A DNA stretch of 48,186 bases from a virus, in IMG/VR virus record IMGVR_UViG_3300025151_000062, positions 1 through 48,186 of that record. One strand, written 5' to 3'. The notes under the pieces were generated by a model. It was not told where the DNA came from and searched no databases. It worked only from the letters and a program-made list of their open reading frames with translations. Numbering within the stretch: the stretch's first letter is position 1; the number at the start of each line of letters is the position of its first letter. Of the stretch, positions 12,173 to 48,186 are shown in pieces. The position numbers were made by a program, and so were the translations under genes.

Positions 12173-12191
12173 CATACCACATAATATAATC

Positions 12192-12199
12192 AATAAATA
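12192..12199 (+). promoter_or_regulatory. T4-type late promoter before gp6
   Basis: AATAAATA ends six bases before the gp6 ATG (12206), so the predicted +1 (about 12205) is at the start codon. No Shine-Dalgarno sequence lies between. Confidence 0.6.
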
Positions 12200-12205
12200 C
12201 GATTA

Positions 12206-21700: not shown

Positions 21701-24700
21701 GTTCGTTGGCTGACGGCATCTACAAAATACAGCCAACTGTAGACAGCACAGATTCGAATATTAAATTTACAGTGCCATTCATAGGTACACCTGACAGTAC
21801 AACAAGCCAAGGTTTATTAGGTGTGTTTAAAACTGTGAGAGTGAATGACTTTGATGACCTTGATACAATTGAGCCAGTCAAGCGTTGGCAATTTGGAGAC
21901 GTTGTGTATGTTGATAATGATTACACAACAAATGAAGGCTTATGGAAAATATATCAAAAGTCAACACTTCCAAATGCGTACACATATAAACCAGATAGTG
22001 TTTTTGATAAAGTAATCACAGCATCCGGAGAGTTTGGTAAGAAGTTAGCAGTGTCGTCGGATGGGTTGACATTGGCTGTTGGTGCACCAGGTGCCAATGA
22101 TTTGCATGTATACAGAAGATCAAACACTGCAGACTCGTTTGCACTAAGAAATACTATAAGTGCTACCCAAAACAATGATGCTGATGATGACCAATTTGGT
22201 TCAGCCGTGGCAATGACCAAAGATGGGCTACGAGTATTTGTTGGTTCTCCGTTTACAAGTGATGTTGTTAAATTAACTGTATCAGCAACAGCAGAAAACT
22301 TTCCTAGGACCACAGTATTATCTGGAGGCACGTCATCTGCCACAGGCACTGTGTTATACAATGATCCTAATGATGATATAATTTACGTTAAGATGACAAG
22401 CACAGCTGACTTTGTAGGTGGTGAACTTCTTGGCACTGCTGATTCAAGTTCACTAGTCACAGTTACAAAGGTACAAGGAGCCAACGGTGTCAATCAAGGA
22501 GTTGTTCACGTAATCAAAGCAGATGCATCATTCCAGTTTGGACTGACCCAAATAATTACAGCACCAGATGTAGGACCAGGAGAAAAATTTGGTTCAGCCA
22601 TTGCTACAAGTGATGACGGAACATTTTTAGTCATTGGTGCATCAAGCGGACCAAATGATTCATCTCTGCAAAATCAAGGAACAGTGTATGTTTACAAGTA
22701 CGAAGCAGATGGATCTTCTGCAATTTACACACTATGGCAAACATTGACACCCAACAATAGAGAAATTGGAGAAAAATATGGAGAAGCATTGTCAATATCA
22801 GGAGATGGCAAAACTATTGTTGTAGGAGCTCCTGAACACACTGATTCAACAACTGCAACTGCTGGTAAAGTATATGTGTTCAGACTACACAATGGCTACT
22901 TTATAGAAAACGAATCTTTGACTAGTGGTATAGTGTATGCAGATGCACAGTTTGGTTCAAGTGTGGCAATCAGTGAAGATGGTACAGATGTAATGGTAGG
23001 TGCACCAAATGAAAATTTAGTAGGTGCTGTAACACACTTTATCAACAACACGTCGACACACAACACAGATGGTTCTACAAGTTCCTTCACAGCAAGTTTT
23101 GATATTTTACAAGACGGAACGGAATTATATGTAAGCGATGGCACTGTGGTTTATTATCCGTCTGCAAATGATTCAACAACACCAAATTATACGTTGGATG
23201 GATCATCCAACACTGTGGTGTTAAGCACAATACCAGAAGCAGGCAAAACACTTACTATTCAACAGTACAAGCCACACAAAAAAATAAAAGAGTTAGATAC
23301 AAATACAAGCACTGGATTTGGTACTAATATTACATTGAGAAATGATACTATGGCAGTGTATGCTCTCAAAGGCGACAACAAACGTGCTACTACGTTTGAT
23401 ACGTTAGCAGATGATAGTTCAACTGTACTTGCTGGCACAACATTTGATGACCAAGCAACAGCATTTAAAGATCTTATTGCTGATACAGGAAGTGTGCAAG
23501 TGTTTAGCAAATATGATCAAGCATTTATATTTGATCAAACTATAGCATTAGGTGGATCATTATTGAGTGATGCAGATCAGTTTGGTAATGGTCTTGCTAT
23601 CAGTGGCAATTTCATTTACGTTGGTGCACCTCAAAGTGATGTTACAGCCACTAATGGTGGTGCAGTATACAAATTTGAAAAATCAACAAACGACAAAATT
23701 TGGAACACAGTATCGACTCAACCAAATTTAATAGACATAAAGAATGTGAAAAAACTGTTTGGGTATGATGATTATACCAAACAGCAACTTACTGGATTTG
23801 AATTTATTGATCCAGCAAAAGGCAGACTGTTTTCTGAAGTAGAAAAAAATATATCATACAAAACACCATATAGACCAGACTCAGACGACTGGGATCACAA
23901 GCAGGTTGGTCAAATTTGGTTTGATACAAGCAAAATTAAATTTCAATGGTACGAGCAAGATGATTTATCATACAAATACACTAATTGGGGGAAATTGCAT
24001 CCTGGCTCTATAGTGGAAATGTCAGAATGGACTGAAAGTGATCTTACTCCTGCAGATTGGAATGCACAGGCGTCCAGCACAGATGGAGTGGCTAGAGGCA
24101 TAACTGGCAGAGCTGACACAACCTTCATTCAAAAAGCAACTTATGATGATAACAAAAATGTTTTTGTAGACAAATATTATTATTGGGTAACAAATCCAAC
24201 AGTGTTGCCTGCTGTTAGTTTTAGAACAATGACAGCTGTCCAAATGGCAAACGCAATAGAAGATCCAAAAAACTTTACAGAAAACTTTGCGGCTATAATT
24301 GGCACTAATGCTTTGTTAATCAATTTAAGAAAATCTTTACTTAATGAAGATGATTTTATTTTACATTTTGAAACAACCACAGACGACAATCAATTGAATT
24401 TGCACACTGAACATGTGTTGGTTGCAAAAGGTGATACTAATTCTAACATTCCGTCATCGTTGTCAACAAAATTTCATGATTCGATTGTAGGGCGTGATTT
24501 GATGGGTAAAAAAGTTCCAGATACCAGTTTACCAGTAAAAATGAGATATGGTAATTTGAATCGACCTAGACAGTCATGGTATACAAATACAGTTGAGGTT
24601 GTTCAAGCATTGACTCAATTTATCAATGATAAGTTAGCTAATAAGCCATATGCAACACTGTACAATTTGGATCGCCTTAGCTTAGTCGACCCTATTCCAA

Positions 24701-27700
24701 ATGCAAAACTTAATGAATATGACATCACAGTAGATACATTTACTGACTTAGGCTTTTTGAATACCAGTACAATATCGTCGGGATACAAAGTTCTTGTTGA
24801 AACAGATGTTAATGCACAGGACAACTGGAGAATTTATACATGGAACGGTAGTACTTGGGATGGCACAAAGAGTCAAAGCTATGACACTACCAAGTATTGG
24901 GCTTTAGCAGATTGGTATGCAGACGGTTATGACGAAACTCTTACTCCGACTTATATTGTTGCCGATGAAAAAACAAGAAAATCAACTGAGTATGACACAG
25001 GCACCATTGTTAAAGTGCAAACATCATATGATGGAAATTTCCGTGTATACATTAAAACATTTAATGACTGGGAAATTATCGGTATAGGAAAAGGCACAGT
25101 TGAATTAGACACTGCTTTGTATGATTTTACTGGATCAAATTTAGGGTTTGGTGGCGATGCTTATGATTATAATGCGTATGATCAGCAAGCAAGTGTAGAA
25201 CTAAGATATATTTTGGAATGGGTACGTGATACAGTGGCTGGTGATGACACTTTAAAATACAATGATGTATTTTTCTTAGGTATAAGGTTGGCACAATTAC
25301 AAAACAAAGATATTGATTGGGCATTCAAGTCTTCATTTGTAAAAGTTACTAATACTTTCTCAACACTAAGTCAATTACCAGAGTATCAAATTGAAACTTC
25401 GGATGCTGTGCGTGAATTTTTAGAAGAAGTGTTACCTTTCAGCACTAGCATCAGGGAAGAAAACACAGTTTATCAAAATTTAGAAAGTTTTGCAGGCGAT
25501 GTAACAGATTTTGATAATAAAACTTATTATGATTTTGATGCAAAAAGTTATGTAAATCCAAGGACATTTGCAGATGATTCGACATATTTTAAAGTGTATA
25601 ATGACAATCCTTGGAAACAGTATTCAGACAATTACAAATACAACATTGGTTCGATAATTGTTACTAACGCAGGACAAGGTTATACCACTGTGCCTGTAGT
25701 TACAATAACAGGCGGTGGCGGGTCAGGAGCAACTGCAACAGCACTTTTAGGTAATGGCAAAATCACAAGTATTAGAGTTACCAATGCAGGATCAGGTTAC
25801 ACATCTACACCTACAGTTACAATAACAGGAGGCGGAGGTGCATCAGTTACTACGCCGGCAACAGCATATGCACAGTTGACCAATAATAAAATTAGATCAT
25901 TAGACACAGCAATTAAGTTTGATAGAATTAACAGTTTGAGACAAACAAGCACTAACACTATTACTGATTGGACAGCATTCACACAATACACAGCAGGATC
26001 CAACATAAGAAATGGAAATGAAATATATTATGTAGAAGCTACATTCACTTCAGGAAACACCTTTGATGACAACGTATTGCTTGAAGATTCTTCTTCAGTT
26101 AGTTCACTTGCTCCACTTGTAAAATGGTCAGCCACTGATAGGATACATGCATATTATGATCCTGGCGTGGGCATGGCAGGGCTGATAGGAGATGGCTCAA
26201 CAAGTTATAATGCTTATGCACAATTAATGACAGGCTTAGAATACAAAGGCGTACGTGTTTTGTCAGACGGATTTTCGACTGGTGCTACATATGATGTTGC
26301 ATCTTATGATAATACAGAATACGATTTAGAAGAAGTTACTGATGCTAGTAATGTTGCAGACATTACTAACTTTGATCAGTTGCTAGATTCTAAAACGTTT
26401 ACAACTCAACTGGGGCAACGAGCAGAAGATATCAATGTGGTTGGTGATGCTTTCATTTCTGAATATTCTGCAAATGCTCCAGAAGAGGTTGTACCAGGTG
26501 GTGTATATGATACAGTTGATATCAAAGTTTATACACAGCCATCAGATGGTGCTTCTGTGATACAAAGGCGTAATCACACTGGAGACGGGAGCACCACTGT
26601 ATTTTCAATACCGTCGCCAAGAGAACAACATGGCGTAAGAGTATTTGTTAACAATCAATTCAGAGCCAATGGTGCAGATTACTCAATTGATTATGCAAAC
26701 AGCACAATTACTTTTAGCACAGCGCCGCTAGACATGTCGGTGATATCAATAGTGGTGATAAAAGTTTCAGTGGACAATTTGATTGCTGAATTCAGCAAAA
26801 CTGGAGATGGGTCCACAGTATCATTTAACGTGCCTGTTTCTTTTGACACTATTAAACAACACTATGTTTTATCAAATGGACAAAAAGTAGGAGTTACCCT
26901 TACTCCGGGTACAGATTCAGCTTCAACTAATGTAGTGTTTCCAACTGCGCCGATTGACAACGCATCAATCAGCATATATTTGTTTGATCTTGATTCAAGT
27001 GAAAAAGCATTTTCAGAAGTTGTGTCCACCACATACTCAAGGATGGATGATGATTCATCCACAGTTATTAGTTTTGCATCTGAGCAACCAGCGTTAGCAT
27101 CAACTTCGGTACTGACCGCAGACAATGCCGGTGTTAGAGCAGACGCAGAAAGATTAGTTACATTTGAAGATAGCAGTGGACTTGGCACAGGTATTTTGAA
27201 TATTCAACTTACTGAACTTCCTTCAGCAGTGGGACCATATCATCATAAAGCTATTGTAGAAGGTGTTGCAGGGTCGACTGATACAAACAGATATAGATTG
27301 GCTCCACCACAGATTAGATTCCATCAAGGGGATGGCACGTCTACGTTGTTCATCATACCTGATGAACCAATTTCAAACGATTTTGCAGATATCACAAATG
27401 TTGAAGTTTGGAGAAACGGCAACAGAGTTGACACAGCTGAATATACAATCAGTGTAGATGGCACTGGAGAAAAAGGCGTGTTGTTTGCAAGTGCACCATT
27501 CTCAACAGATAGTATTGCTATAGTTTTAAAATTAGGGCATGACTATGAGATAGATGAAAATGGAATATTATCTTTACAATCAGGATTTTCAGATGGGTCT
27601 ACTATTAACAATGACAAAGTTGTAGTGACAACATTTACTAATCATGATAAAATGGGCATGAGAACAGAAACATTCTTAGGCTCCACTGGGGCGTTGAATG

Positions 27701-28806
27701 TGTTAGGAGAGGGATATGGAGATGTAACAGATGCACATACAGCCACTAGAGATTATGGCTCACTTAGCCCTGCAGATGCAGTTGCTATTGATTTTGGGGC
27801 TGTTGGTACAAGTGCATTTTCTATTGCAGATATTTCTGAAAGAAAATATGAATTACATCAAACGCCAGTAAATGGTGACTATGTGTTTGTAAGTGTAAAC
27901 AAACAATATCTTACTAGCAATGTTGATTACATTTTATCAGGCAAAACTGTCACAATTCCTAGACGTAATCTTACGCTAACAGATTCTGTTGTTATTTCAT
28001 ACATTACAGCGGCATCAAGTGAACCAGCTATAGGTTATAGAATATTCAAAGACATACTCAACAGATATCATTATAGAAGAATGAGTGTTAATCATGCAAC
28101 TACACTGGCCAAAGATGTTTCAGTGGATTCCACAACAATACAAGTGGTTGATGGCAGTGTTTTACCTACACCATCCACCACAGCTAACGTGCCTGGCATC
28201 ATATCTATCGGCAGTGAAAGGATAGGATACTTTACCAAAGAAGGTAACATACTGTCTAACTTGTTTAGAGGTACACTTGGTACTGGTGTACAAGATCACA
28301 GCATGCATGCCACTGTGGTTGACGCATCCATGAATCAAAAGATACCATATGACGATGTTGAAACCACAACAGAACGCACAGGTGATGGGTCAACAGTGAC
28401 TTATCAAATTGATCCTGTTGAATTTACAGTGGTAGAACAAGACAGCTCGACAGTCACTAGAGTAATGCCTCCTGTTACATCGAAGGATGAAGTAGTTGTG
28501 TTGTTGGGTGGAGAAAAAACAACTGCATTTACACTGGGTGTTGACTCAGCAAGAACAATTACATTTGATACGGCACCAGCTTCAGGCATCAAAATTAGAA
28601 TTACAACCAAGCATGGCGAAATGTGGCTCAACAGAAGTTCACAATTCATCAGTGCGGACAGTGATGTACACACAGTTGACACAACCAATCCAACAGCAGA
28701 TGCAACAACTTTCCCAACTACAGGAGAAGGACTGCAGAAATCATTGTCTCAACCAGTACAGTTCTTGCAAGATGCACCAACTGATTTAACTTTGTTTAAT
28801 TTATAA
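15727..28806 (+). CDS. 7: Giant gp7-like baseplate wedge/receptor-contact protein, 4359 residues
   Basis: This protein is four times the size of T4 gp7 (1032). The N-terminus ([39 protein letters not shown]) matches the large wedge protein after gp6 in marine T4-like phages; its position supports gp7. Visible modules are: cupredoxin-like (about 158-262), with H196/H199, C248, H251 and M254; CBM5/12-like at 1425, 1683 and 3415; a seven-repeat FG-GAP propeller (about 2100-2650); a GxGYTxxP duplication (about 3310-3382); GDGST beta-modules at 3619, 3693, 3868 and 4219; and a GSERIGYF...RGTLGT module (about 4160). It probably links the wedge to surface-binding appendages. The ATG overlaps the gp6 stop by one base and has a GGAGGT site. 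It ends two bases from a convergent fibre gene with no terminator. Module names are by eye. Confidence 0.75.
16198..16515 (+). other. Cupredoxin-like domain inside the giant wedge protein
   Basis: Encodes about residues 158-263. The order of strands ([55 protein letters not shown]) is that of plastocyanin-like folds. C248-x2-H251-x2-M254 followed by VGKI has the ligand spacing of amicyanin, and H196 or H199 would be the fourth ligand. Confidence 0.6.
22033..23670 (+). repeat. Seven FG-GAP-type repeats (predicted beta-propeller)
   Basis: Seven repeats of the form FG.x3.S.DG.x3.VGAP lie in the giant protein: [55 protein letters not shown], a degenerate [10 protein letters not shown], and [10 protein letters not shown]. 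Five end in VGAP or VGSP, one in IGAS, and the sixth is degenerate. Seven such repeats are what a closed integrin-alpha-type propeller needs. Confidence 0.75.
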
Positions 28807-28808
28807 GA

Positions 28809-31322
28809 TTATAGTCGACCAACTACTACTTCAATCACGCCTTGAGTAGTTGAATCATAATTTTCTAAGGCTTTGCCAATAACACACCCTGGTGTATATT
28901 TTGTTGGATCAACTTTACATGCAACACCTGGTATGTCTGATGATGTAACTAAATCACCTTTTGCAATTGGTCCAATTACTTTGCATGGCACACGTCCAGT
29001 GAGTGCAAGTTCTGTGCTGTTTTCTAATTCATTGTTCATGATAAATCCAGGTTGTGTGGATACCACGCCTGCAATTTTTGAATCATGTGACACAGTAGAT
29101 TGTGTAATTTCATTATCACCGCCAAACACCATTACGTGACCAGGATGGTACAGAATATCTGCAACATATCTTTCCGCCAAATCCGCATATTGTGCCGCAG
29201 TAACAGTACCTGTGATTGTTCCTGTTACTCGCATTGCATCACGCACTGTAATTTGTGTTGAATCATGTGCTACCAACGTATCAGTTCTGATGTTCAGTAT
29301 TTCTACTTCTGATGATGATTGTGATTCAATTGAATCTACAGTAATATTGGCATCTAAAGCAACTGTTAAAACTTGCGTACTGGATGTGTCAGTTGTAATT
29401 GAGTTACCACCAGATACTTGTAGCGTATTTGTACCAACCACAACTTCCATTTTGGTTGAGTCATCACCTACAATTTCTAGTACGGAAGATAGTGCCCCAA
29501 CTTCTGTGTCAACATATGCTTTGATTGATTGTTGTGTTGCTAATTTAACAGCTGAATCTGATGACATGTCATCCTCATCTAATATTCCTGTTACTACAAC
29601 TGAATTGCCAACTTCTAATGATGTTTCGGCATTCAATGCACCTGAAATATTCACGTTGTCTGCTACCTGAATTGCTGTGGAATCACTGGATGATATGTCA
29701 TTTACCGTTAATGAGTCAGCCAGTAATGCACCCATCACATTCAGGTTATCCCTTACTGTGATTTGTGCAGAATCGTGTGCAACCAGTGTGTCAGTTCTGA
29801 TGTTTAATATTTCAACTTCAGTCGAATCCAATGATGATACTGAGTTGACTGTGATATCAGCATCCATGCTCACTGTCAAAGTTCTTGTTGAAGTGGTGCT
29901 TGTTGATAAACTGTTGCCGCCGGAAAACTGTAATGGTGAGTTTGTGTCAACGTTGAATTGGACACCAACTGAGTCATCGCCTGACAGTACCATTTGTGGT
30001 GTTGCACCTGAATTGGCATCCACATATGCTTTGACTGATTGTTGTGTTACTAGATGCACGCCTGAATCTGATGTCATATCATCTTCATCAAGAATACCTA
30101 CTACAACGACTGAATTGTTAATTTCCAATGATGTTTCAGTGTTGAGAGCACCACTGATATTCATTGCATCTTCTACTTGTATAGCTGTAGAGCCATCTCC
30201 AATGAGTGCCTGTGTTCTCAATCTGTCTATTGTGATTTCTGTTGAGTCTGCACTTGTGATTGATGTAACTGATAATTGTTCTGCTAAACTTATTTTTACG
30301 TTACCAGCTGATGTTGTTGATGTTGTAATTGAAGTGCCACCTTCGAAGTGCAGTGTTGCTGGTGTGTCTTTTGCAAAAATTAAATCAACATTAGTTGAAT
30401 CATCGCCTGATATTTTTAAACTTTGTCCTAATGCTGTGGCTGTGTTTTGATCATCGACATATTTTTTAATTGATTGTTGTGAAGCAAGTGCTGTTGCACT
30501 GTCTGATGACATGTCGTCTTCATCAACTATTGTTGAAACAACAATGCCTTCGTTGAAACCAAAATTTCCGTTTACTTGTAAGCCGTCATCAATGGTAACT
30601 GCTGTGGAATCACTGGATGATATTGTGTTGGACACAATAGTTGCGGCAGTCAGTGTGTCTGCAAAAGATCCTGTGCCACTTGCACTCAAGTCTGTTAGCG
30701 TAGCATTGCCACTGATGTTCACTGAATCATTCAGCTGTATTGCAGTTGAATCCCCTGAAGATAATTGATTTGTTTCTAGTGTAGGAATATTTGCAGTGCC
30801 GGTGACTCTAAAGCCATCGTCTATCACTACTTCTGTTGAATCATTTGATGAAATTGTGTTAATGTCTAGTGTTTCTGCAGAAATATTGCCAGCTACTGTG
30901 ATGCCGTTTTCTACAACAACTTCACTTGACCCTTGAGTTTGTATGTTACCAGCAAGTATTAAGTTATCGTTGATAAGCACACCTGTGGAATTGGCTGAAG
31001 CAATAGAATCAGCATTGATATCTGAGGCTAGTGATCCTGTGATTGTGTCACCAGTAATTGTAAAGGATATACCACCAGATCCAACCAGTTTAACATCAGT
31101 TGTGCCTGGTGTTACTGTTAATGATGTAGAGCTTTCGTCTGAAAATGTATGGGTATGAGCGGCAATATCTGAGTATTTTGCAATTCTAACACCGCCAGTT
31201 GTGCTACCGTCATGTACTTTTAATGTTTTTAAATCAGTATCTACTGTAACTTCACCTACGGCACCGGTGAAACTGCTGTGTGCAGAAGTGGTGCCTCGTC
31301 TAAACTGTACTTGAGTTGTCAT
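28809..31322 (-). CDS. Repetitive tail-fibre protein on the opposite strand
   Basis: An 837-residue protein. The N-terminus MTTQVQFRRGTTSAHSSFTGAVGEVTVDTD is a common fibre start. The body is made of short beta repeats (SSDSTAIQV.DNVNISG) within three longer tandem modules, each beginning with [IV]xDEDDM[ST]SDS and QQSxKxYVD. The C-terminal 130 residues (AAQYADLAERYVADILYHPGHVM ... ALTGRVPCKVIGPIAKGDLV) form a compact domain also found at the end of the fibre at 36197-37750. It is the only structural gene here on the minus strand, divergent from the virion gene at 31385 and convergent with the giant gene. It has its own late promoter seven bases before the ATG. Confidence 0.8.
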   Translation of the reverse strand: MTTQVQFRRGTTSAHSSFTGAVGEVTVDTDLKTLKVHDGSTTGGVRIAKYSDIAAHTHTFSDESSTSLTVTPGTTDVKLVGSGGISFTITGDTITGSLASDINADSIASANSTGVLINDNLILAGNIQTQGSSEVVVENGITVAGNISAETLDINTISSNDSTEVVIDDGFRVTGTANIPTLETNQLSSGDSTAIQLNDSVNISGNATLTDLSASGTGSFADTLTAATIVSNTISSSDSTAVTIDDGLQVNGNFGFNEGIVVSTIVDEDDMSSDSATALASQQSIKKYVDDQNTATALGQSLKISGDDSTNVDLIFAKDTPATLHFEGGTSITTSTTSAGNVKISLAEQLSVTSITSADSTEITIDRLRTQALIGDGSTAIQVEDAMNISGALNTETSLEINNSVVVVGILDEDDMTSDSGVHLVTQQSVKAYVDANSGATPQMVLSGDDSVGVQFNVDTNSPLQFSGGNSLSTSTTSTRTLTVSMDADITVNSVSSLDSTEVEILNIRTDTLVAHDSAQITVRDNLNVMGALLADSLTVNDISSSDSTAIQVADNVNISGALNAETSLEVGNSVVVTGILDEDDMSSDSAVKLATQQSIKAYVDTEVGALSSVLEIVGDDSTKMEVVVGTNTLQVSGGNSITTDTSSTQVLTVALDANITVDSIESQSSSEVEILNIRTDTLVAHDSTQITVRDAMRVTGTITGTVTAAQYADLAERYVADILYHPGHVMVFGGDNEITQSTVSHDSKIAGVVSTQPGFIMNNELENSTELALTGRVPCKVIGPIAKGDLVTSSDIPGVACKVDPTKYTPGCVIGKALENYDSTTQGVIEVVVGRL

Positions 31323-38707: not shown

Positions 38708-38736
38708 TAGACAAGTTGGTTTAAGTATGCTATAAT
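38708..38736 (+). promoter_or_regulatory. Sigma70-type promoter of the glycosyltransferase/radical SAM operon
   Basis: TAGACA (38708-38713; 5 of 6 to consensus), a 17-nt spacer and a perfect TATAAT (38731-38736). The predicted +1 is one base before ATG 38744. The host-type form differs from the late motifs of the structural genes and suggests early or middle expression. A perfect inverted repeat overlaps it. Confidence 0.65.
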
Positions 38737-38744
38737 CTAGCATA
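38726..38744. promoter_or_regulatory. Operator-like perfect inverted repeat
   Basis: TATGCTA (38726-38732) and TAGCATA (38738-38744) are exact reverse complements with a 5-base centre. The repeat covers the -10 box, the expected +1 and the A of the start codon. It could be a repressor site or, in a longer RNA, a hairpin hiding the start. Confidence 0.5.
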
Positions 38745-39019
38745 TGAACAAACGTATTTTTATAGCCAAAAGAGATATAAATTTATTAAAACAACGTCTA
38801 GCAACTGCTGGACATTTTGTCTATGAAGGTGGTTTGTTTTCAGCTGACAAAAATTTTGTAGCATATATCAATGCATTGACAGAGTCAAGCTGTGTTGAAG
38901 ATCTCAATGGAGCTCCTGTGTGGGTAGAAAAAATTGAAGAATTCAAATCTTTAGTTAAAGCAAAACATCAAGAAGTAATGAATGAATTACACCATGAATA
39001 CAAAAAACTTACAACATGA
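38744..39019 (+). CDS. Small protein of unknown function heading the modification operon
   Basis: A 91-residue protein that I do not recognise. The middle FVYEGGLFSADKNFVAYINAL looks like a small alpha/beta domain, and the C-terminal half (VEKIEEFKSLVKAKHQEVMNELHHEYKKL) is a long charged helix, possibly coiled coil. There is one Cys. It lies directly behind the sigma70-type promoter with a leaderless start and overlaps the next gene. It is not an obvious RiPP precursor: it has no leader/core division and no Cys-, Ser- or Thr-rich tail. Confidence 0.6.
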   Translation: MNKRIFIAKRDINLLKQRLATAGHFVYEGGLFSADKNFVAYINALTESSCVEDLNGAPVWVEKIEEFKSLVKAKHQEVMNELHHEYKKLTT

Positions 39020-39779
39020 CCGTGGATTTTTAATTTACAATTTTAATACTGACAGTGTAAATTATTCTAAAATCACTAGCATTTGTATAAAACATTTGAA
39101 ACACTACATGCCGGATATTCCAGTGGCAGTGTGCGGTGATCACGTGGAAGGATGTGACATACACATTTCAAAACAAGACGTAAAACACAATCAAAGAACT
39201 TATATTCATAAAGGAAAAAGGCAGGAAGAAACATGGCTTAATTTGACTAGAGATTTGTCTTTGGATATTACACCATTTGATTCAACAGTGCTATTAGATT
39301 CAGATTTTTTTGTGTTGTCTAATCAATTAGCCTTATTGTTTGACAGCGATTCGCCTATATTGTTGCATGACAGTGTGTACAATATCAAAGAAGACCATAT
39401 TAGTAAATCTTATTTAGGTAAAACTACTATAATGAAAAAATGGGCAACTATTGTTAAATTTGATCATAGTAAAGTAGCGGAAAATTTTTTTAATCTTTGG
39501 CAACAAACACTAAAAAATTATGAATACTATATGAAATTGTATGGATGGAAAAATGATGGCACTGTGTGGAATGACAATGCAGTGTCAGTAGTGCATAGTC
39601 AAATAACAAATTATGATAGCATGTCTAAACAATTTATCATTCCATGGCCGCAGTGCTTTGCAAACTTTCAATGTGATATAGAATCTGTTGATATGGATTG
39701 TATCAAAATCAAAGATCAAAAATCAACAATGCACATCAAACAAGACGTGCATGTGTTAAACAAACAAGAACTGCTATGA
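38982..39779 (+). CDS. GT-A-like glycosyltransferase 1
   Basis: A 265-residue protein. The segment STVLLDSDFFVLSNQL (about residues 102-117) is a GT-A style strand followed by D-S-D, the metal- and nucleotide-sugar-binding DxD motif. GKTTIMKKWATIV and GTVWNDNAVSVVHSQI are later acceptor-side parts (WNDN). It would transfer a sugar from a nucleotide sugar to an unknown acceptor. The start is ambiguous between ATG 38982 (AGAAG six bases upstream) and ATG 38994; both overlap the previous gene by more than 20 bases. Confidence 0.6.
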   Translation: MNYTMNTKNLQHDRGFLIYNFNTDSVNYSKITSICIKHLKHYMPDIPVAVCGDHVEGCDIHISKQDVKHNQRTYIHKGKRQEETWLNLTRDLSLDITPFDSTVLLDSDFFVLSNQLALLFDSDSPILLHDSVYNIKEDHISKSYLGKTTIMKKWATIVKFDHSKVAENFFNLWQQTLKNYEYYMKLYGWKNDGTVWNDNAVSVVHSQITNYDSMSKQFIIPWPQCFANFQCDIESVDMDCIKIKDQKSTMHIKQDVHVLNKQELL

Positions 39780-40681
39780 CAGATAATCCAAAATCAAAAA
39801 CCAAACTGGGAATAGGCATTTTAACATATGCTCTAAATTCACCTGATACTGATTATGAAAAATTGGCCTACTTGATGGCGCTAAGTTATATTGCAACTAA
39901 CAAACATCAGTTAAAACTGTGTGTGATAGTAAATGATAGAAAGAATTGTAGGCCAGAATTATATGATGTGTATGACTTTGTATTGGATAAACCAGATCTT
40001 ACAAAATTTAAGAAATCACAAGATGAGGCCATTCATCCTATGCATTATGAAGCTCATTTATTTCGAATTACACCTTTTGCAGAAACAATAAAAGTTGAGT
40101 GTGATATGCTTTTTACTAGCGACATATCTAATTGGATAAAACACATGAGGCAATATCCTATTTGTTTTACTAATCAAGTGTACAATTTTAACAACGAACC
40201 AGCAGATGATTCATATTACAGGAAATATATCCATCAAAATTTATTGCCTAATGTTTATAATGGATTTATGTACGTTAGATTTCTTAGAACCACTGCAATG
40301 TTTTTCAAGTGTGTTGATCAAATATTTAGAAATTGGGACTACAATATTAAAAAATTTCGTTTATGGGAAAAATGGAAACCTTCAACTGATTTTGCTATGG
40401 CTATGGCTTGTCATTACATGAATGATTTAACATTTGGTATCAATCCAACAGGCATTCCGGGGTTTATACATGCAAAACCTTATATCACACACAAATCAAA
40501 AAAGCATTGGCATGAAGAAATGAACTGGTCTATTGTAAATCCAAGCACTGTAATCGTAAATGGCGTTAAAGCATCTTGGCCAATACACTATTATGACAAA
40601 AACTTTGCAACAGATGAAATTCTAAAAAAATATGAAGTATTTTTACAAAACAAAAATTTTAACAAACACTTCCTTTTTTAA
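39776..40681 (+). CDS. GT-A-like glycosyltransferase 2
   Basis: A 301-residue protein starting at the ATG that overlaps the previous stop (ATGA); a longer in-frame start at 39698 is inside the upstream gene and rejected. LGIGILTYALNSPDTDYEKLAYLMALSY and LKLCVIVNDRK are the first strands. HLFRITPFAETIKVECDMLFTSDI carries C-D-M-L-F with a following Asp, a variant DxD site like that of GT8-like enzymes. The C-terminus has IHYYDKNFATDEIL. Its differences from glycosyltransferase 1 suggest another linkage or sugar. The acceptor is unknown. Confidence 0.6.
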   Translation: MTDNPKSKTKLGIGILTYALNSPDTDYEKLAYLMALSYIATNKHQLKLCVIVNDRKNCRPELYDVYDFVLDKPDLTKFKKSQDEAIHPMHYEAHLFRITPFAETIKVECDMLFTSDISNWIKHMRQYPICFTNQVYNFNNEPADDSYYRKYIHQNLLPNVYNGFMYVRFLRTTAMFFKCVDQIFRNWDYNIKKFRLWEKWKPSTDFAMAMACHYMNDLTFGINPTGIPGFIHAKPYITHKSKKHWHEEMNWSIVNPSTVIVNGVKASWPIHYYDKNFATDEILKKYEVFLQNKNFNKHFLF

Positions 40682-40684
40682 CCT

Positions 40685-41026
40685 ATGGACTTAGTTTTTA
40701 AAATTTACTATGATGAAGGAGGCATTATTAAAAGCCTTACAACAGAATCACTACCTGGTAAACACGTTGTAGTATCCAAAAAGGATTTTGCTATAATATC
40801 AGACAATCCGTCAAAATACTTTGTACAAGATGGCAAGATAGAGGAAATTAAAAAGATCAAATATCCAGCTCCTACAATAAAATTTAGTGACACATTTAAG
40901 TTAGGAAAAGATGGTAAGTGTTATGTAGTACACAAAAATAACTTGTTTTATTGCGTAGACAGTGTTACAATTAAACCAAGCTGGTTTGACCCAGATAAAC
41001 ATAGTTGGGCGGTGTATGATAGTTGA
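40685..41026 (+). CDS. Small protein of unknown function
   Basis: A 113-residue beta-rich protein that I do not recognise with confidence. It begins MDLVFKIYYDEGGIIKSLT and contains VVVSKKDFAIISDNPSKYFVQDGKIEEIKK, a pattern seen in short proteins of marine T4-like phages, and ends in a Cys-containing beta region. No catalytic motif is apparent. It lies three bases after glycosyltransferase 2 and overlaps glycosyltransferase 3 by eleven bases, so it is part of the operon. Confidence 0.6.
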   Translation: MDLVFKIYYDEGGIIKSLTTESLPGKHVVVSKKDFAIISDNPSKYFVQDGKIEEIKKIKYPAPTIKFSDTFKLGKDGKCYVVHKNNLFYCVDSVTIKPSWFDPDKHSWAVYDS

Positions 41027-41876
41027 TATTGCTGAGTTAGACGTAATTTTTTTAAGTTACAAAGAACCAAACAAAGAACACAATTGGTTAGATCTAAAGT
41101 CTAAATGCCCATGGGCAAAAAGAGTAGATGGGGTTGAAGGTTCAGATGCGGCACACAAAGCGGCCGGCGAAGCATCTAGCACAGAACGATTTATTTTAGT
41201 GGATGGTGATAACATTGTTGATCCATCATTATTTGATCAACAAATTGATCTCACTAACCATAAACCTAACATAGCCATTAGATGGAGAGGATACAACAAC
41301 ATTAATGGACTAAAATATGGCAATGGTGGTGTGTCTTGTTGGACAAAAACATTTGTTCGCAACATGAAAACACACGAAAACACAGATGGGTCAGATCAAT
41401 CTTTGGTTGAATTTTGTTATGAAGATGGATATTTGCCATTCCAAGATGTATATTCAACCACAGTAATCAATCATACAGAGCAACAGGCATGGCAGGCAGG
41501 ATTTAGAGAAGGTGTAAAAATGTCTTTAGATAGAGGAACAAAAAAATCGCCATCTGAATTTTTATCATCAATACACAAACAAAACTTGCATTGTCTTTTA
41601 ACTTGGATGGGCATAGGTGCTGATGTAAAAAATGGTCTATGGGCAATGTATGGAGCATGTGAAGGCTGTTATAAAACCATGGTTGAAGAATGGGACTATG
41701 TTAATGTGCGTGATTTTGGATATTTGAGTCAATATTGGCAAGACAAAGATACAGACAGCATTGACCTTACAAGCAAAATAGATGAATATCATCAAGAACT
41801 TAACTACACATTAGGTATATCAGCGGCAAGATTAGAAGACACTCAGTCTAAGTTCTTTAAATATCTTAATAAATGA
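41016..41876 (+). CDS. GT-A-like glycosyltransferase 3
   Basis: A 286-residue protein, start at ATG 41016 (an upstream start at 40962 would lie deep in the previous gene). The N-terminus LDVIFLSYKEPNKEHNWLDL, then CPWAKRVDGVEGSDAAHKAAGEA and RFILVDGDNIVDPSLF, is a fold known to me from marine phages, with D-G-D-N as the DxD site of GT-A enzymes. GNGGVSCWTKTFVRNM is the acceptor-side loop. The C-terminal third is helical. It ends in an ATGA overlap with the first radical SAM gene, the tightest link between the glycosyltransferase and radical SAM parts. Confidence 0.65.
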   Translation: MIVDIAELDVIFLSYKEPNKEHNWLDLKSKCPWAKRVDGVEGSDAAHKAAGEASSTERFILVDGDNIVDPSLFDQQIDLTNHKPNIAIRWRGYNNINGLKYGNGGVSCWTKTFVRNMKTHENTDGSDQSLVEFCYEDGYLPFQDVYSTTVINHTEQQAWQAGFREGVKMSLDRGTKKSPSEFLSSIHKQNLHCLLTWMGIGADVKNGLWAMYGACEGCYKTMVEEWDYVNVRDFGYLSQYWQDKDTDSIDLTSKIDEYHQELNYTLGISAARLEDTQSKFFKYLNK

Positions 41877-43234
41877 CCAGCGAGTATCAATCAGCGGCCA
41901 ATAAAGCAAGGCTGAAATTAGACCAAGCTTCTCCAACTTTATGTTTAGCAAAGTGGATGCAAACCTCTTTGCATCTTACTACAGGGCTTACAAATTCTTG
42001 CTACCATCCACCTTTACACAAAATTGATAAGGAGCAAATAAAGGTTAGTCCAGCAAAGTTGCACAACACAGACGAAAAAAAACAACAACGAAAATTAATG
42101 ATAGATGGCAAACGCCCAGACGGGTGTTCATACTGTTGGAAAATAGAAGACAATAATAAAATGAGTGATAGACATTATCGTTCAGGTGAGCCATGGGCCA
42201 TGGATCATTACACAAACATTTTAGAAAATCCACAAGCAGACATAGTTCCTACTTACGTTGAAGTTGATTTCAGCAATGCATGTAATTTTAAATGTTCATA
42301 TTGTTCGCCACAGTTTTCAACAGCATGGGCTCAAGAAATAGAAGAACATGGTTCCTTTCCAACACAACCAGTTCATAACGACCCAACACATTTTACAGGC
42401 AAAAATAAAGTATTACCTCAAAAAGATAATCCATTTGTTGAAGCATTTTGGAAATGGTGGCCAGACTTATATCCTAAATTAAAACATTTTAGAATGACAG
42501 GTGGCGAACCAATGATGGATAAAAATACGTTTAAAGTATTTGAGTATGTAATTGATAATCCAAAAAAAGATTTACACTTAAACGTTACGTCTAATTTTTG
42601 TCCACCAGCCCCCGCATTAGGTGACAAATATTTTAACATGGTTAAAACAATGTGTGATGGTGCAATGATAGAACATTTTATGCAATTTGTATCATTAGAT
42701 GCTTGGGGCAAAAAAGCAGAGTATATTAGAAATGGTATGGACTTTGATACTGTATGGTATAATGTTAATAGATACTTGACTGATATTGCTGGGTACAATT
42801 CTATTACATTTATTATTACAATGAATAATTTAAGTGTGTCTAGTTTAAAAACATTAATGGTACACATACTTGAATTAAGAAAACGATATTCAAGTACATA
42901 TCAACGTGTTTGGTTTGACACACCAATTCTTAGACAACCAATTTGGCAACACATAGGATTATTAGATCAATCATTTAACTATTATTTTGAAGAAGCTATA
43001 GAATACATGAAAGAACATCAACATAGTTCTGATATGGCGGCATTTAGAGATTATGAAATAGCAAAATTAGAACGTACATATGAAGTTATGCAACAAGGAA
43101 TCGAAGGTCGTGATCAACAGTTGTTTAACTTTTGGAAATTTTTTAGAACACATGATGCTAGGCGCGACACTGATATGATTGAAACTTTTCCTGAGTATAG
43201 TAATTTTTTTCAGGAGTGTAGAAATGCAAAATAG
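41873..43234 (+). CDS. Radical SAM protein 1, twitch type (class A)
   Basis: A 453-residue enzyme. The radical SAM triad C137-x3-C141-x2-C144 (CNFKCSYC) holds the SAM-binding 4Fe-4S cluster, and TGGEP (G210) binds the SAM amino group. In front of the core, C24, C43, C85 and C88 (CLAKW, SCYHP, GCSYC) form a candidate auxiliary cluster domain. The same four, with identical spacing, occur in the gene at 44268. It ends in a TFPE motif (IETFPEYSNFF). The substrate is unknown. It overlaps the glycosyltransferase (ATGA), and its last codons carry the ribosome site of the next gene. Confidence 0.85.
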   Translation: MTSEYQSAANKARLKLDQASPTLCLAKWMQTSLHLTTGLTNSCYHPPLHKIDKEQIKVSPAKLHNTDEKKQQRKLMIDGKRPDGCSYCWKIEDNNKMSDRHYRSGEPWAMDHYTNILENPQADIVPTYVEVDFSNACNFKCSYCSPQFSTAWAQEIEEHGSFPTQPVHNDPTHFTGKNKVLPQKDNPFVEAFWKWWPDLYPKLKHFRMTGGEPMMDKNTFKVFEYVIDNPKKDLHLNVTSNFCPPAPALGDKYFNMVKTMCDGAMIEHFMQFVSLDAWGKKAEYIRNGMDFDTVWYNVNRYLTDIAGYNSITFIITMNNLSVSSLKTLMVHILELRKRYSSTYQRVWFDTPILRQPIWQHIGLLDQSFNYYFEEAIEYMKEHQHSSDMAAFRDYEIAKLERTYEVMQQGIEGRDQQLFNFWKFFRTHDARRDTDMIETFPEYSNFFQECRNAK

Positions 43235-44264
43235 ATTTAATTGGCCTTTATGGCATTGGCACGTTGAGGTTTCCAGCATATGCACTCTCAAATGTCCAAG
43301 GTGTCCTCGACAAGAAGTGCCAGATACTTTAATCCAAGATCAATTACGGCTAGACTTTTTTAAAAATAGTTTTACAGTGGAAGTAATACAACAAATAGAA
43401 CGTATTAGTTTTTGTGGAGATGATGGTGATCCAATATATGCAAAAGAATTTTTACAAATTATTCAATATTTGAAGTCAGTTAAACCAACAATGAACATAC
43501 TAATAATAACAAATGGTAGTTACAAAAAAGTTGAATGGTGGAAACAATTAGTAAGTTATTTGAATGAACATGATGAAATACATTTTTCTATAGATGGATG
43601 GGACCAAGAAAGTAATGAAAAGTATAGAGTCAATTGTGATTGGCCTAGTATAATCGAAGGTATAAAAGCAGTAGTTGGTCATGCACCAACAATTACATGG
43701 GCTGGAATTGTGTTTGCTTTTAATGAACACAATATCAATTACATGAAAGGCATGGCAACAGGGCTTGGCATGGACAAGTTTCAAATTACAAACAGCACTA
43801 AATTTGGTTACAATTATCAACACTACAATGACAGTGCAGGAAAAGACGTATTGGAGCCATCGGTAGATTACATATCACAGCAAGGCAGGTTTGATAGGAA
43901 AATTTTTAACTTAACACACAAACGAGTGCAACAAGACAAAGCAATTAATACAAACATTGAACATTTTAATAATGTGTCAGCAACAGATACAGGCATTGTG
44001 CCATTGTGTATGATAGGAACTAAAGGGTTATACATTAATTCACAGGGATATTTTTTACCATGTTGTTGGGTTGGTAATAGATACAATTACAAAACGTATT
44101 CACAATTTTTAATTGACGATTTAAACATTTACAAACATGGTATCGAACACGTATTAAACAGCGACTACTGGGAAGAATTTTTTGATAATTTTCATAATAT
44201 TGCAGAATGCAAAATGAAATGTTCAGCTCATTTAGTAAACAAAGAATATGCAACAAATTGGTAA
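43224..44264 (+). CDS. Radical SAM protein 2, C-terminal SPASM/twitch-like (class C)
   Basis: A 346-residue enzyme. Start chosen at ATG 43224 because AGGAG (43212-43216) lies seven bases upstream; an ATG at 43179 would lie within the previous gene. The triad is C20-x3-C24-x2-C27 (CTLKCPRC), and the loop after strand 2 is FCGDDGDPIYA, the G-D-P version of GGEP. After the barrel comes CMIGTKGLYINSQGYFLPCCWV and a C-x3-C (CKMKC) near the end, a SPASM/twitch-like auxiliary cluster at the C-terminus. This is the standard domain order and differs from the five other radical SAM proteins here. Confidence 0.85.
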   Translation: MQNRFNWPLWHWHVEVSSICTLKCPRCPRQEVPDTLIQDQLRLDFFKNSFTVEVIQQIERISFCGDDGDPIYAKEFLQIIQYLKSVKPTMNILIITNGSYKKVEWWKQLVSYLNEHDEIHFSIDGWDQESNEKYRVNCDWPSIIEGIKAVVGHAPTITWAGIVFAFNEHNINYMKGMATGLGMDKFQITNSTKFGYNYQHYNDSAGKDVLEPSVDYISQQGRFDRKIFNLTHKRVQQDKAINTNIEHFNNVSATDTGIVPLCMIGTKGLYINSQGYFLPCCWVGNRYNYKTYSQFLIDDLNIYKHGIEHVLNSDYWEEFFDNFHNIAECKMKCSAHLVNKEYATNW

Positions 44265-44267
44265 GGT

Positions 44268-45605
44268 ATGAATAAAGATTTAGAATTTAAAAAACAGCAA
44301 TTAGATACTAAATCATCATCTTTCTGTGCGGCTAAATGGTACAACGCAACAATATGGTTAGGGTCAGGACAAACAACTTCTTGCCATCATCCGTTGCCAC
44401 ATCAAATTGATCTCGAAGAAATCAAAACAAATCCAAAAGCAATACACAATACAAGACAAAAAAAATTAGAAAGAGAAATGATGCAAGTTGGCGAAAGACC
44501 AAAAGGCTGTGAGTATTGTTGGAAAGCTGAAGACATAGGCCCGACAGTGGTATCAGATAGGATATACAAATCAAAAATTTATACCAATGATGCTTTGGAT
44601 CAAGCATTCCAAACACCATGCCAAAAAGATGTGGACCTTAAAACTTTAGAAATATCTTTTGATAGAACTTGTAATTTTGCGTGTTCTTATTGTAATCCTG
44701 CATTCTCTACAACTTGGGTCAAAGACATTAAAAATAATGGACCATATGAAAATCTTAAGTCAGATGGTAGAAATCATTTTACACATCCACATGATGCTTC
44801 ACAAAAATATGGATATCAAGAGTACAATCCTTACATTGAAGCGTTTTGGAAATGGTGGGAATCTGATTTGCACAAGACTTTGCAGGAATTGAGAGTTACT
44901 GGCGGTGAACCAATGATGAGTGCAGACATGTGGAAACTGTTAGATTGGTTCAAAGATAATCATGGTAAGTCGGAAACAAGATTAGCTATCAATTCAAATT
45001 TATGTCCTAAAGATGCATTAATGGACAGACTTATCAAAGCTTCACATCACATAAAAAACTTTGAAGTGTACACATCAGCTGAAGCTATGTTCAGTCAATC
45101 AGAATATATCAGAGATGGAATGAACTTCAAACAATGGCACAATAATATGATAAGATTAATTGAAGAAGGAAACTTGACTGGACTTCATGTTATGTGTACA
45201 ATAAATGCATTGTGTTTAGATTCATTACCACAGTTTATTGATATGTTAGTTAATATGAAAAGAAAATACGGCAGAGATTATCCTAACTTTACCCTTAATA
45301 TTTTGAGATTTCCTTCTTTCCAATCAGCAGTAGTTTTGCCTAAGGATATTAAACAAAAGGCAATTGGATTACTAAATGAAAAGGCAACATTATACAAGGA
45401 TGAGTTGCATGAACACGAATATAATCAAATGAATAGATTAATAAATTATCTCGAGTCAGTAGATTCGCCACATGCAGGTGCTGACACATTGGAAAGATTA
45501 CAGCAAGACTTCAAAAACTTTTATTCACAATATGACAAAAGACGTGGAAAAACTTTTGAAAAAACTTTTAGTCCAGAAATGGTAGAGTGGTATGTCGGAT
45601 TATAA
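44268..45605 (+). CDS. Radical SAM protein 3, twitch type (class A)
   Basis: A 445-residue paralogue of the protein at 41873, with the same plan. Auxiliary cysteines are C20, C39, C81 and C84 (CAAKW, SCHHP, GCEYC), with the spacing 19/42/3 exactly as in protein 1. The core triad is C135-x3-C139-x2-C142 (CNFACSYC) and GGEP is at G212. A conserved phrase between domains is WK.ED (YCWKAED). The C-terminus has a diverged TFSPE ending. The two class A copies are separated by the class C gene, so the duplication is not tandem. The stop overlaps the next gene by 14 bases. Confidence 0.85.
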   Translation: MNKDLEFKKQQLDTKSSSFCAAKWYNATIWLGSGQTTSCHHPLPHQIDLEEIKTNPKAIHNTRQKKLEREMMQVGERPKGCEYCWKAEDIGPTVVSDRIYKSKIYTNDALDQAFQTPCQKDVDLKTLEISFDRTCNFACSYCNPAFSTTWVKDIKNNGPYENLKSDGRNHFTHPHDASQKYGYQEYNPYIEAFWKWWESDLHKTLQELRVTGGEPMMSADMWKLLDWFKDNHGKSETRLAINSNLCPKDALMDRLIKASHHIKNFEVYTSAEAMFSQSEYIRDGMNFKQWHNNMIRLIEEGNLTGLHVMCTINALCLDSLPQFIDMLVNMKRKYGRDYPNFTLNILRFPSFQSAVVLPKDIKQKAIGLLNEKATLYKDELHEHEYNQMNRLINYLESVDSPHAGADTLERLQQDFKNFYSQYDKRRGKTFEKTFSPEMVEWYVGL

Positions 45606-46872
45606 AAATAAAATGCCAACAAAAGTAGACAAGGCAAAGTTGTCTAGTCATGAAAAGTTTTTGTTAGAAGATAGCAAATACTATTGCACTTTACCTTGGA
45701 CACATTTACATGCATATCCAAATGGCAAAGCATACCCTTGTTGTTTAGCAGAACATAAATTTCCAATTGGCGACTTGAAGCAAAACACATTGAAAGAATT
45801 ATGGAACAATGATAAGCAGAAAAAAATTAGAAAAAACATGATGGAAGAGAAACCATCTCGAGAATGTGCAAAATGTTATGAGCAAGAAAAACATGGATGG
45901 ACTTCTATGCGGCAATCTTCAAATATACATTTTGGTCATCATGTTGATAAAGTAAAGCGAACAAAAGAAGATGGTCATTATGACGATGTAAACATGGTGT
46001 ACTGGGACATAAGGTTTTCCAATCTGTGTAATCTGTCTTGTAGGTCTTGTGGTACTACGTTTTCATCAAATTGGTATGATGATCAAGTAGCACTATGGGG
46101 CAAACCTGATCACGCCAAAGTGACATGGGCTGGCAAAACAAAAATGGATGCCTATGAGCAACTAGTTGAATATTTGCCTATGGTTGAAAGAGTTTATTTT
46201 GCAGGAGGCGAACCATTAATTATGGAAGAGCACTATAAAATACTCAAAGAATTAATTAAACTGGGCAAAGCAGATTCTGTAAGACTGCAATACAACACCA
46301 ACTTTACTAGAATGGCATACAAAGATCTTAATGTGTTAGATATTTGGCCAGAGTTTGCAGACGTATCTGTGGGTGCTTCTTTGGATGCAATGGGTCCACG
46401 TGCCGAGCTCATGCGTAATGGCACAGTGTGGGCAGACATTGAAAGGAACAGAGCTGAAATGTTGAAAAAATGCCCAGATGTTGATTTCTTTATTTCGCCA
46501 ACAGTCAGTATTTTTAATGTTGATCATATACCAGATTTTCACTGGGATTGGTTACAAAAAGGGCTAATAAAAGGTCAAGATCTCAATGTAAATGTGTTAC
46601 AAGATCCCATGCATTATAGAGTAGACATTTTACCAACTCATATGAAAAGCAAAGTTCGGGAAAAACTAGAAAAACACATTGAACGCATCAAACCATATGA
46701 TCATTTGGGTAGAGCAACAGACGGCTTCAAAGCTACTATCAGCATGATGATGGCAGACGATAAAAGTCATATACTACCTCAGTTTGTGGAAAATACTAAT
46801 AGGTTAGATGAATTAAGGAAACAAAATACAGCACAAGTGTTTCCAGAGCTAGGAGGTATATTAAATGCCTAA
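45592..46872 (+). CDS. Radical SAM protein 4, twitch type (class B)
   Basis: A 426-residue protein. An N-terminal Cys module (C32, C50, C51, C92, C95: CTLPWTHLHAYPNGKAYPCCLAE and ECAKC) has the layout usually seen at the C-terminus of SPASM enzymes. The core triad is C146-x3-C150-x2-C153 (CNLSCRSC) and GGEP at G205. Between the modules are a KELWNN segment and K..R..M, typical of twitch domains (GDLKQNTLKELWNNDKQKKIRK). It ends VFPELGGILNA, whose codons include the AGGAGGT ribosome site of the next gene. An alternative start is ATG 45613. Confidence 0.85.
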   Translation: MSDYKNKMPTKVDKAKLSSHEKFLLEDSKYYCTLPWTHLHAYPNGKAYPCCLAEHKFPIGDLKQNTLKELWNNDKQKKIRKNMMEEKPSRECAKCYEQEKHGWTSMRQSSNIHFGHHVDKVKRTKEDGHYDDVNMVYWDIRFSNLCNLSCRSCGTTFSSNWYDDQVALWGKPDHAKVTWAGKTKMDAYEQLVEYLPMVERVYFAGGEPLIMEEHYKILKELIKLGKADSVRLQYNTNFTRMAYKDLNVLDIWPEFADVSVGASLDAMGPRAELMRNGTVWADIERNRAEMLKKCPDVDFFISPTVSIFNVDHIPDFHWDWLQKGLIKGQDLNVNVLQDPMHYRVDILPTHMKSKVREKLEKHIERIKPYDHLGRATDGFKATISMMMADDKSHILPQFVENTNRLDELRKQNTAQVFPELGGILNA

Positions 46873-48037
46873 TTCATTGTGTATATTACCTTGGATGTCA
46901 TTAGAAGCAACACCTACAGGAAACTTTAGGCCTTGTTGTCTAGCAGAAGATTTGATTGTTGATAAAGATGGCACTGCATATGATATTGCAAACAGTGGTA
47001 CACTTGAACAAGCATTTAATTCAGAGTATATGGAAAATTTGCGTGAACAATTTCTTAATGGTAAAAAGCCAACAACTTGTAAAAAGTGTTGGGCTTTAGA
47101 GGCAAGTGGTGGCGAAAGCAAAAGACTTATCTCTAACAAAAAGTTTGGACAAAATATAGACAATAAAAAATTATCTTTTCTTGATCTTAAGCTAGGCAAT
47201 ATTTGTAATTTGAAATGTAGAATATGTGGTACTTGGTCGTCATCAAAATGGGCTCAAGAGGAAATAGCACTTGGAAATGATGATGCAAAACGTGTGTTGA
47301 AGTTAGGTGCATGGCCCCGCAAAGAAAACAAGTTGTGGGATGAAGTAGTTGGTATGTTACAAGATGTAAAATATTTTGAATTTACAGGAGGAGAACCTTT
47401 TTTGATTCAAGAGCATTTTGATTTATTAGAAAAAAGTGCTGAACTAGGACATGCAAAACATCAGCAAGTACATTATAATACTAATGGCACAACTTTTCCG
47501 CAAAAAGCAGTTGAACATATATGGCCGCATTTTGGTGAAGTTGAAATTGCTTTTTCAATTGATGATATTGGTAAAAGATTTGAATACCAAAGATATGGTG
47601 CAAAATGGGATCAAGTTGCACAAAATATACAAAAATTTAATGATTTGAAACAAACACATAAGAACATTAAAACACAGATTTGTTGCACCATTAATATTCA
47701 AAACATTTACAATTTAGATGCAGTAGCAGACTGGATCAGAACACAGGACTTTGATTATGTCTACTATAACTATTTGCATGAGTCCAAAGAATGGAATGTA
47801 CAGTATTTGCCTACCAGTATTAAAAATAGAATACAGTATAAGTTAGGAACATACAGCAATGACGTATTTCACAAAGAACAATTACAAGGTGCAATTAATT
47901 TTATGATGGATAAAGATTTAGATTGTTTGGAAATGAGGAAAATGCGTAATCAAAAAATACAAGGCAGTGATAAATTTAGGAATGAATCTTTTGCAGATAC
48001 TTTTCCAGAGCTAAAGGAGTTGTTGTGGCAAAAATAA
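46865..48037 (+). CDS. Radical SAM protein 5, twitch type (class B)
   Basis: A 390-residue paralogue of protein 4. N-terminal cysteines are C6, C24, C25, C72 and C75 (CILPW, PCCLAE, TCKKC); C6 to C24 keeps the 18-residue spacing of protein 4. The core triad is C114-x3-C118-x2-C121 (CNLKCRIC) and TGGEP at G175. The C-terminus ends TFPELKELLWQK. Ribosome site AGGAGGT (46851-46857) is seven bases before the ATG. The start overlaps the previous stop by eight bases. The reaction is unknown. Confidence 0.85.
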   Translation: MPNSLCILPWMSLEATPTGNFRPCCLAEDLIVDKDGTAYDIANSGTLEQAFNSEYMENLREQFLNGKKPTTCKKCWALEASGGESKRLISNKKFGQNIDNKKLSFLDLKLGNICNLKCRICGTWSSSKWAQEEIALGNDDAKRVLKLGAWPRKENKLWDEVVGMLQDVKYFEFTGGEPFLIQEHFDLLEKSAELGHAKHQQVHYNTNGTTFPQKAVEHIWPHFGEVEIAFSIDDIGKRFEYQRYGAKWDQVAQNIQKFNDLKQTHKNIKTQICCTINIQNIYNLDAVADWIRTQDFDYVYYNYLHESKEWNVQYLPTSIKNRIQYKLGTYSNDVFHKEQLQGAINFMMDKDLDCLEMRKMRNQKIQGSDKFRNESFADTFPELKELLWQK

Positions 48038-48186
48038 AACCAAACGAAGGTAATAAGACATTTTGTATGGCTCCATGGGTACACACTTATTTGAGTCCAC
48101 AATCAGAAAGAAGGATATGTTGTGCTTCAACAGAGCCTGCACAAAATTTTACACAATACATTGACACAGCTGAAGGATCAGGTAAT
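48025..48186 (+). CDS. Radical SAM protein 6, N-terminal part (cut by window edge)
   Basis: The first 54 residues of another class B protein, starting with GTG at 48025, with AAGGAG (48014-48019) five bases upstream, and overlapping the previous stop by 13 bases. C14, C32 and C33 (FCMAPWVHT and RICCAS) reproduce the C-x3-W and CC elements and the 18-residue spacing of proteins 4 and 5. The core should follow beyond the edge, so radical SAM membership is inferred from this module. Confidence 0.7.
   Translation, partial: MAKIKPNEGNKTFCMAPWVHTYLSPQSERRICCASTEPAQNFTQYIDTAEGSGN

Follow-up and report, generated by a model that had tools for sequence, protein, structure and literature searches.

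The radical SAM (rSAM) genes at the right end of the window (the whole stretch of DNA analyzed, the 48,186-nt IMG/VR record IMGVR_UViG_3300025151_000062, positions 1 to 48,186) belong to a module that is common to hundreds of uncultured giant T4-like phages, in which five rSAM enzymes are nearly always all kept. T4-like phages rich in rSAM genes are already known; no description of the fixed five-rSAM module was found in the literature searched. We tentatively prefer the view, which falls somewhat short of probable, that the operon is a glycoconjugate-tailoring line, separately promoted and located, in jumbo T4-like phages, in the host-recognition region. A radical SAM enzyme is costly and oxygen-sensitive, and it usually acts single-handed on one substrate. 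As five distinct enzymes are kept in nearly every locus examined, the lineage must gain something specific from their product.

Radical SAM genes of the window

As listed in Table 1, the stretch 41873-48186 consists of five intact rSAM ORFs followed by the beginning of a sixth, all arranged head to tail, with successive junctions of -11, +3, -14, -8, and -13 bases. These coordinates and junctions agree with the original prediction of six consecutive genes. All six are present; however, the set really consists of five core N-twitch rSAMs and an accessory class C cargo gene. The cut-off of the NCBIfam model NF033640 (N_Twi_rSAM, N-terminal twitch rSAM) is 170 bits. A1, A2, B1, and B2 exceed this value and match across the model (310-411 bits), whereas the class C gene remains below it at 43.7 bits and carries a C-terminal SPASM domain instead. 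The B3 fragment aligns to the first 37 positions of the model with a score below the cut-off; it is orthologous to complete B3 enzymes in relatives, and the full orthologues pass.

The four core enzymes that are complete in the window have the arrangement C-x17/18-C ... CxxC, giving four N-terminal cysteines ahead of the triad, as in NF033640. No substrate is named in that model, and its members here fall into five subfamilies that make up one fixed operon. GGEP is found in every complete rSAM of the window except the class C gene, which has GDDGDP instead. Both the Cys triad and GGE/GDP were kept by 345/345 phage members checked. The predicted CxxxCxxC with GGEP or GDP in each complete enzyme was thus borne out, and by these superfamily motifs the window enzymes and the 345 members are active-looking. 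For A1, no match was obtained in a PDB sequence-profile search. The best structural matches of its model are the RiPP maturases SkfB and SuiB, plus viperin; the modelled fold fits a radical SAM/SPASM enzyme and does not tell a peptide substrate from a sugar one.

Table 1. Features of the module in the window
Feature	Coordinates	Strand	Remarks
Sigma70-type promoter TAGACA-17-TATAAT	38708..38736	+	TG before -10; -10 ends 7 nt before s105 start
s105, first module gene	38744..39019	+	~100 aa; family in 68/70 loci
GT1, putative sugar transferase	38982..39779	+	LLDSDFF, DxD-like motif; family in 66/70 loci
GT2, putative GT8-like sugar transferase	39776..40681	+	in 70/70 loci
s100 slot, small fast-evolving protein	40685..41026	+	27-31% identity to five nearest relatives
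GT3, putative GT-A-fold glycosyltransferase	41016..41876	+	DGDN motif; 70/70 loci; just upstream of A1
A1, N-twitch rSAM	41873..43234	+	453 aa; NF033640 318 bits; C24, C43, C85, C88, CxxxCxxC at 137
Class C rSAM, C-terminal SPASM, accessory	43224..44264	+	346 aa; A1-A2 cargo slot; CxxxCxxC at 20
A2, N-twitch rSAM	44268..45605	+	445 aa; NF033640 310 bits; CxxxCxxC at 135
B1, N-twitch rSAM	45592..46872	+	426 aa; NF033640 411 bits; CxxxCxxC at 146
B2, N-twitch rSAM	46865..48037	+	390 aa; NF033640 344 bits; CxxxCxxC at 114
B3, N-twitch rSAM, first 54 codons	48025..48186	+	GTG start; runs off contig end; NF033640 32.7 bits

Conservation of the module in related phages

The A1 alignment matched 235 viral contigs and the B3 alignment at least 595. 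From each search the 80 best contigs were read; the two samples overlap in some contigs and include near-duplicates. Among loci with enough sequence, all five core rSAMs were present in 52/52 found via A1 and 66/68 found via B3. The order s105-GT1-GT2-s100-GT3-A1-[cargo]-A2-B1-B2/B3 is nearly fixed, with extra inserts in some loci; the conserved gene order that the original prediction had proposed looking for therefore exists. The cargo slot between A1 and A2 is empty or holds an SGNH-like gene, other genes, or, as in the window, a class C rSAM. In relatives, SGNH-like, carbamoyltransferase, NAD epimerase, and DegT aminotransferase genes (the latter three by Pfam) often follow downstream, and the window ends before the region that holds the carbamoyltransferase, epimerase, and DegT genes. 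Dozens of independent contigs carry the same five-rSAM block, and for many of them identity is 45-80%. Together with the motifs and the omega values, this conserved block supports the earlier proposal of one phage operon of active-looking enzymes.

In a tree of 104 proteins, A1, A2, B1, B2, B3, and C each fall on one side of one branch, with support of 92-100. The division into classes A, B, and C made beforehand agrees with these clades (A1+A2, B1, B2, B3, and C). Because each slot has its own clade, the slots are not interchangeable copies, and redundant duplication was rejected. The tree also indicates that the paralogues are older than the sampled phage lineages. Target-specific roles of the paralogues, as had been suggested, accord with enzymes that are non-redundant and retained all five together. 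For pairs with unsaturated dS, omega of the rSAMs is about 0.03-0.11.

Rates of divergence differ along the module. For pairs whose A1 proteins are 85-95% identical, A1, A2, and B2 stand at 87-88%, and the medians of TF2, s105, GT1, GT2, and s100 are 44-63%. It can be seen that the divergence of s105, GT1, GT2, and s100 keeps pace with that of the neighbouring fiber gene TF2, and that A1, A2, B1, and B2 are more conserved. B3 is the exception to rSAM conservation among close pairs.

Two further observations concern the edges of this pattern. A family of about 368 aa (f36; 16446-17552 in locus L075, and relatives), with no Pfam match, is the next gene after B3 in most second-set loci. In one variant contig (L096), which has a B2-like gene and an A1 that is divergent, the usual order is absent.

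Upstream genes and promoter

Tail-fiber-like genes end at 38707, and the module begins directly after them with s105, GT1, GT2, s100, and GT3, followed by the rSAMs. The operon starts at about 38708 and is larger than the 41873-48186 of the original prediction. The accompanying statement that no substrate gene was obvious is only half right, since the three sugar-transferase-like genes upstream had been omitted. GT1 to GT3 are putative sugar transferases. GT1 has no match in a PDB sequence-profile search, and GT2 matches glycogenin-1 weakly by profile (E 0.056). The AlphaFold model of GT3 (pLDDT 85.7) gives top Foldseek matches that are mostly GT-A enzymes and sugar nucleotidyltransferases, including hyaluronan synthase, SunS, RmlT, and HddC, with E down to 1e-4 and low TM scores of only about 0.2-0.4; no match was found for GT3 in the PDB sequence-profile search. 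The s105 protein has no PHROG match, and s100 of the window has no Pfam or PHROG match. By eye, s100 looks like a folded protein and not a leader-core precursor.

A sigma70-type site was defined by at least 9 of 12 matches. Such a -10 ends 4-7 nt ahead of the s105 start in 55/58 distinct upstream regions, and the other named slots have 0 to 6 sites at such spacing. In a second locus set the site was found in 11/19 regions versus 1/19 shuffled, a partial replication. This spacing places the start of transcription at about the start codon, from which we infer a leaderless s105 message. The sigma70-like site also suggests, but is not proof of, early expression of the module. In 1.47 Mb of plus strand there are 16 occurrences of the T4-type late motif TATAAATA, and 15 of these lie just before an ORF, mostly structural. 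Over the whole window the motif is not enriched (2 found versus 3.6 expected), and it is informative only through its positions across loci.

Cellular relatives in Bdellovibrionota

Genomes found by the A1 profile are nearly all Bdellovibrionota, and a few matches are phage contigs binned in MAGs. Five contigs (L107, L108, L109, L115, and L165) belong to the phage lineage of the window and carry the MAG labels Betaproteobacteria, Rickettsiales, Pelagibacter, Verrucomicrobia, and Flavobacterium. In a FastTree phylogeny, the A1 and the A2 enzymes of the phages lie apart from each other, each inside the corresponding A1-like or A2-like sequences of cells, within Bdellovibrionota. The phage operon is similar to gene clusters with which Bdellovibrio-like bacteria build their envelope.

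The cellular survey covered 52 loci, nearly all from Bdellovibrionota, with representatives of the neighbours checked by Pfam. The neighbours include GT4 family (17 loci), ABC transporter (16), ABC-2 transporter (14), carbamoyltransferase (12), and GT2 family (10) genes; the transporter genes are Wzm/Wzt-like. In one locus (L120), a GT3-A1 pair lies inside a GT2/DegT/epimerase cluster. PqqD-like proteins and small Peptidase_S74 proteins are found at seven loci each, and PqqD was confirmed only beside cellular homologues. A cluster in Bacteriovoracaceae (L111) holds eight N-twitch rSAMs within 12 kb. As in the phages, homologues of A1, A2, B1, B2, and B3 occur together, being among these eight; unlike the phage module, it has extra copies and no adjacent s105/GT1-3 block or tail fibers. 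N-twitch rSAM members were present in 22/38 sampled genomes of the class of Bacteriovoracaceae, with up to 12 in each. In the literature searched, nothing relevant linked rSAM enzymes to Bdellovibrio or Bacteriovorax. The cluster link to Bdellovibrionota provides a route to the substrate of NF033640, a family without an assigned one.

The S74 proteins of Bacteriovoracia (L144, L149, L154, L155, L156, L162, and L164; 142-169 aa, with the Peptidase_S74 domain confirmed by Pfam in L149) share FGGI..FNLEEIE..VLNDS.YLDVFAGSD.RFK, and several adjoin PqqD-like proteins and a class B rSAM. They are a possible candidate precursor peptide. Another family, with proteins of about 320 aa that bear an SDxDLT motif and look nucleotidyltransferase-like by eye, occurs in 18 cellular loci (including L110, L111, L116, L134-L138, L141, L144, L146, L149, L152, and L154); three members tested had no Pfam match.

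Comparison with known phages

Two accounts describe multiple rSAM genes in likewise marine T4-like phages: TARA_ERS488813_N000010, with 12 radical SAM genes (PMC5332604), and pelagimyophages, with radical SAM cassettes in the host-recognition cluster, a tail-fiber region with glycosyltransferases (PMC7029224). In contrast to the module here, what is available of these accounts mentions neither a set order of five genes nor a promoter or a source in cells. CP220 and CPt10, phages of Campylobacter, have 11-12 rSAM genes and an interchangeable module of five rSAM genes, which also has an amidinotransferase (PMC2853527); they match only the class C gene, at about 25% identity, and none of A1, B1, and GT3. 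Vibrio phages K566 and K567 have three annotated neighbouring radical SAM genes; identity is 21-25%, with no GT3 match. In K566 (L168) these genes lie at 11962-16364, and a PagP (lipid A acylation) gene is found about 5.6 kb further.

When isolate phages were searched by tblastn, GT3, s105, and GT2 had no match, and A1 and B1 matched only distant Vibrio and single-cell records. As only distant rSAM matches were found, the module has probably escaped experiment. The open-licence literature searched yielded no description of the operon with its five slots, of its promoter, or of its kin in Bdellovibrionota.

Possible function of the module

If the operon tailors a glycoconjugate, the three sugar transferases would assemble or lengthen a glycan of the surface, or a peptide linked to a glycan, on which the five non-redundant N-twitch rSAMs may make one C-H modification each, in turn, such as dehydrogenation, epimerization, or cross-linking. 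The product could be varied by the cargo (class C rSAM, SGNH-like) and by the downstream carbamoyltransferase, epimerase, and aminotransferase genes. The likely effect would be a remodelled envelope of the infected host, e.g., with receptors hidden from competing phages. The retention of all five enzymes, the slot clades, the motifs, the low omega, the GT-like genes, the cellular neighbours, and the module's own promoter argue for this function. The low TM scores of GT3 count against it; the likeness of A1 to SkfB, SuiB, and viperin and the cellular PqqD-like neighbours favour a peptide. Sugar, peptide, and virion protein were all considered as the target. The mixed cellular neighbours (GT and transporter genes with PqqD and S74 proteins) make an envelope glycan or a glycan-linked peptide the preferred one, ahead of a pure peptide product, and the context leans in that direction. 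A fuller proposition is possible but doubtful: that the module is a widespread phage-encoded pathway of five radical tailoring steps, which was acquired from the envelope clusters of predatory Bdellovibrionota and placed under a leaderless-type promoter of its own, giving the surface of the infected cell or virion a chemistry not yet described in any phage.

It is also conceivable, though rather unlikely, that the operon glycosylates and radically modifies the tail-fiber or adhesin proteins encoded just upstream. The fixed adjacency of the module to the fiber genes, directly after which it begins, and the divergence from s105 to s100 at the rate of TF2 (medians of 44-63%, versus 87-88% for A1, A2, and B2) fit this, and SPASM/twitch rSAMs such as SkfB and SuiB commonly act on peptides. 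However, the sigma70-type promoter differs from the late motif ahead of the fiber genes, and the cellular rSAM set of L111 exists without tail fibers. Moreover, the rSAMs are conserved and the fibers variable, which implies a constant substrate.

A RiPP-like system is improbable; in it, a small peptide (s100 or s105, perhaps) would first be matured by the rSAMs and glycosylated afterwards. The structural closeness of A1 to SkfB and SuiB, the PqqD-like and small Peptidase_S74 proteins adjoining cellular homologues, and the small variable proteins within the phage operon speak for it. On the other hand, s100 appears folded, and even among close relatives its conservation is only about 30%; a motif search found no S74-type protein among the phage-locus ORFs, and a single peptide with five maturases would be an unusual case.

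General auxiliary metabolism, in which the genes would serve Fe-S or low-oxygen fitness and make no dedicated product, was suggested earlier for CP220/CPt10 (PMC2853527) and for Fe-S-rich marine T4-like phages (PMC5332604); it is very unlikely here, as the near-fixed order, the retention of all five enzymes, and the transferase-like linkage point to one pathway. Assembly artefact or decaying duplication, which the original prediction had named as its possible undoing, has a negligible chance, since the same block recurs in many independent assemblies with intact frames, and decay was rejected on the kept triad and GGE/GDP motifs and the low dN/dS, a sign of purifying selection.

Phage lineage and the rest of the window

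Leftward genes of the window match phage late sigma factor, SbcCD-like, and baseplate families. The baseplate wedge is nearest to jumbo T4-like phages, e.g., Agrobacterium phage Atu_ph07 (34% identity), and for this reason an identity as a pelagimyophage was dropped. The lineage is thus nearer to jumbo phages such as Atu_ph07 than to TARA_ERS488813_N000010 or pelagimyophages. Directly after the baseplate wedge gene, a single ORF of 4359 aa occupies 15727-28806. It is followed on the minus strand, at 28809-31322, by a protein whose N-terminal domain is of the Major tropism determinant type (Mtd_N, E 1e-14); its neighbours lie on the opposite strand.
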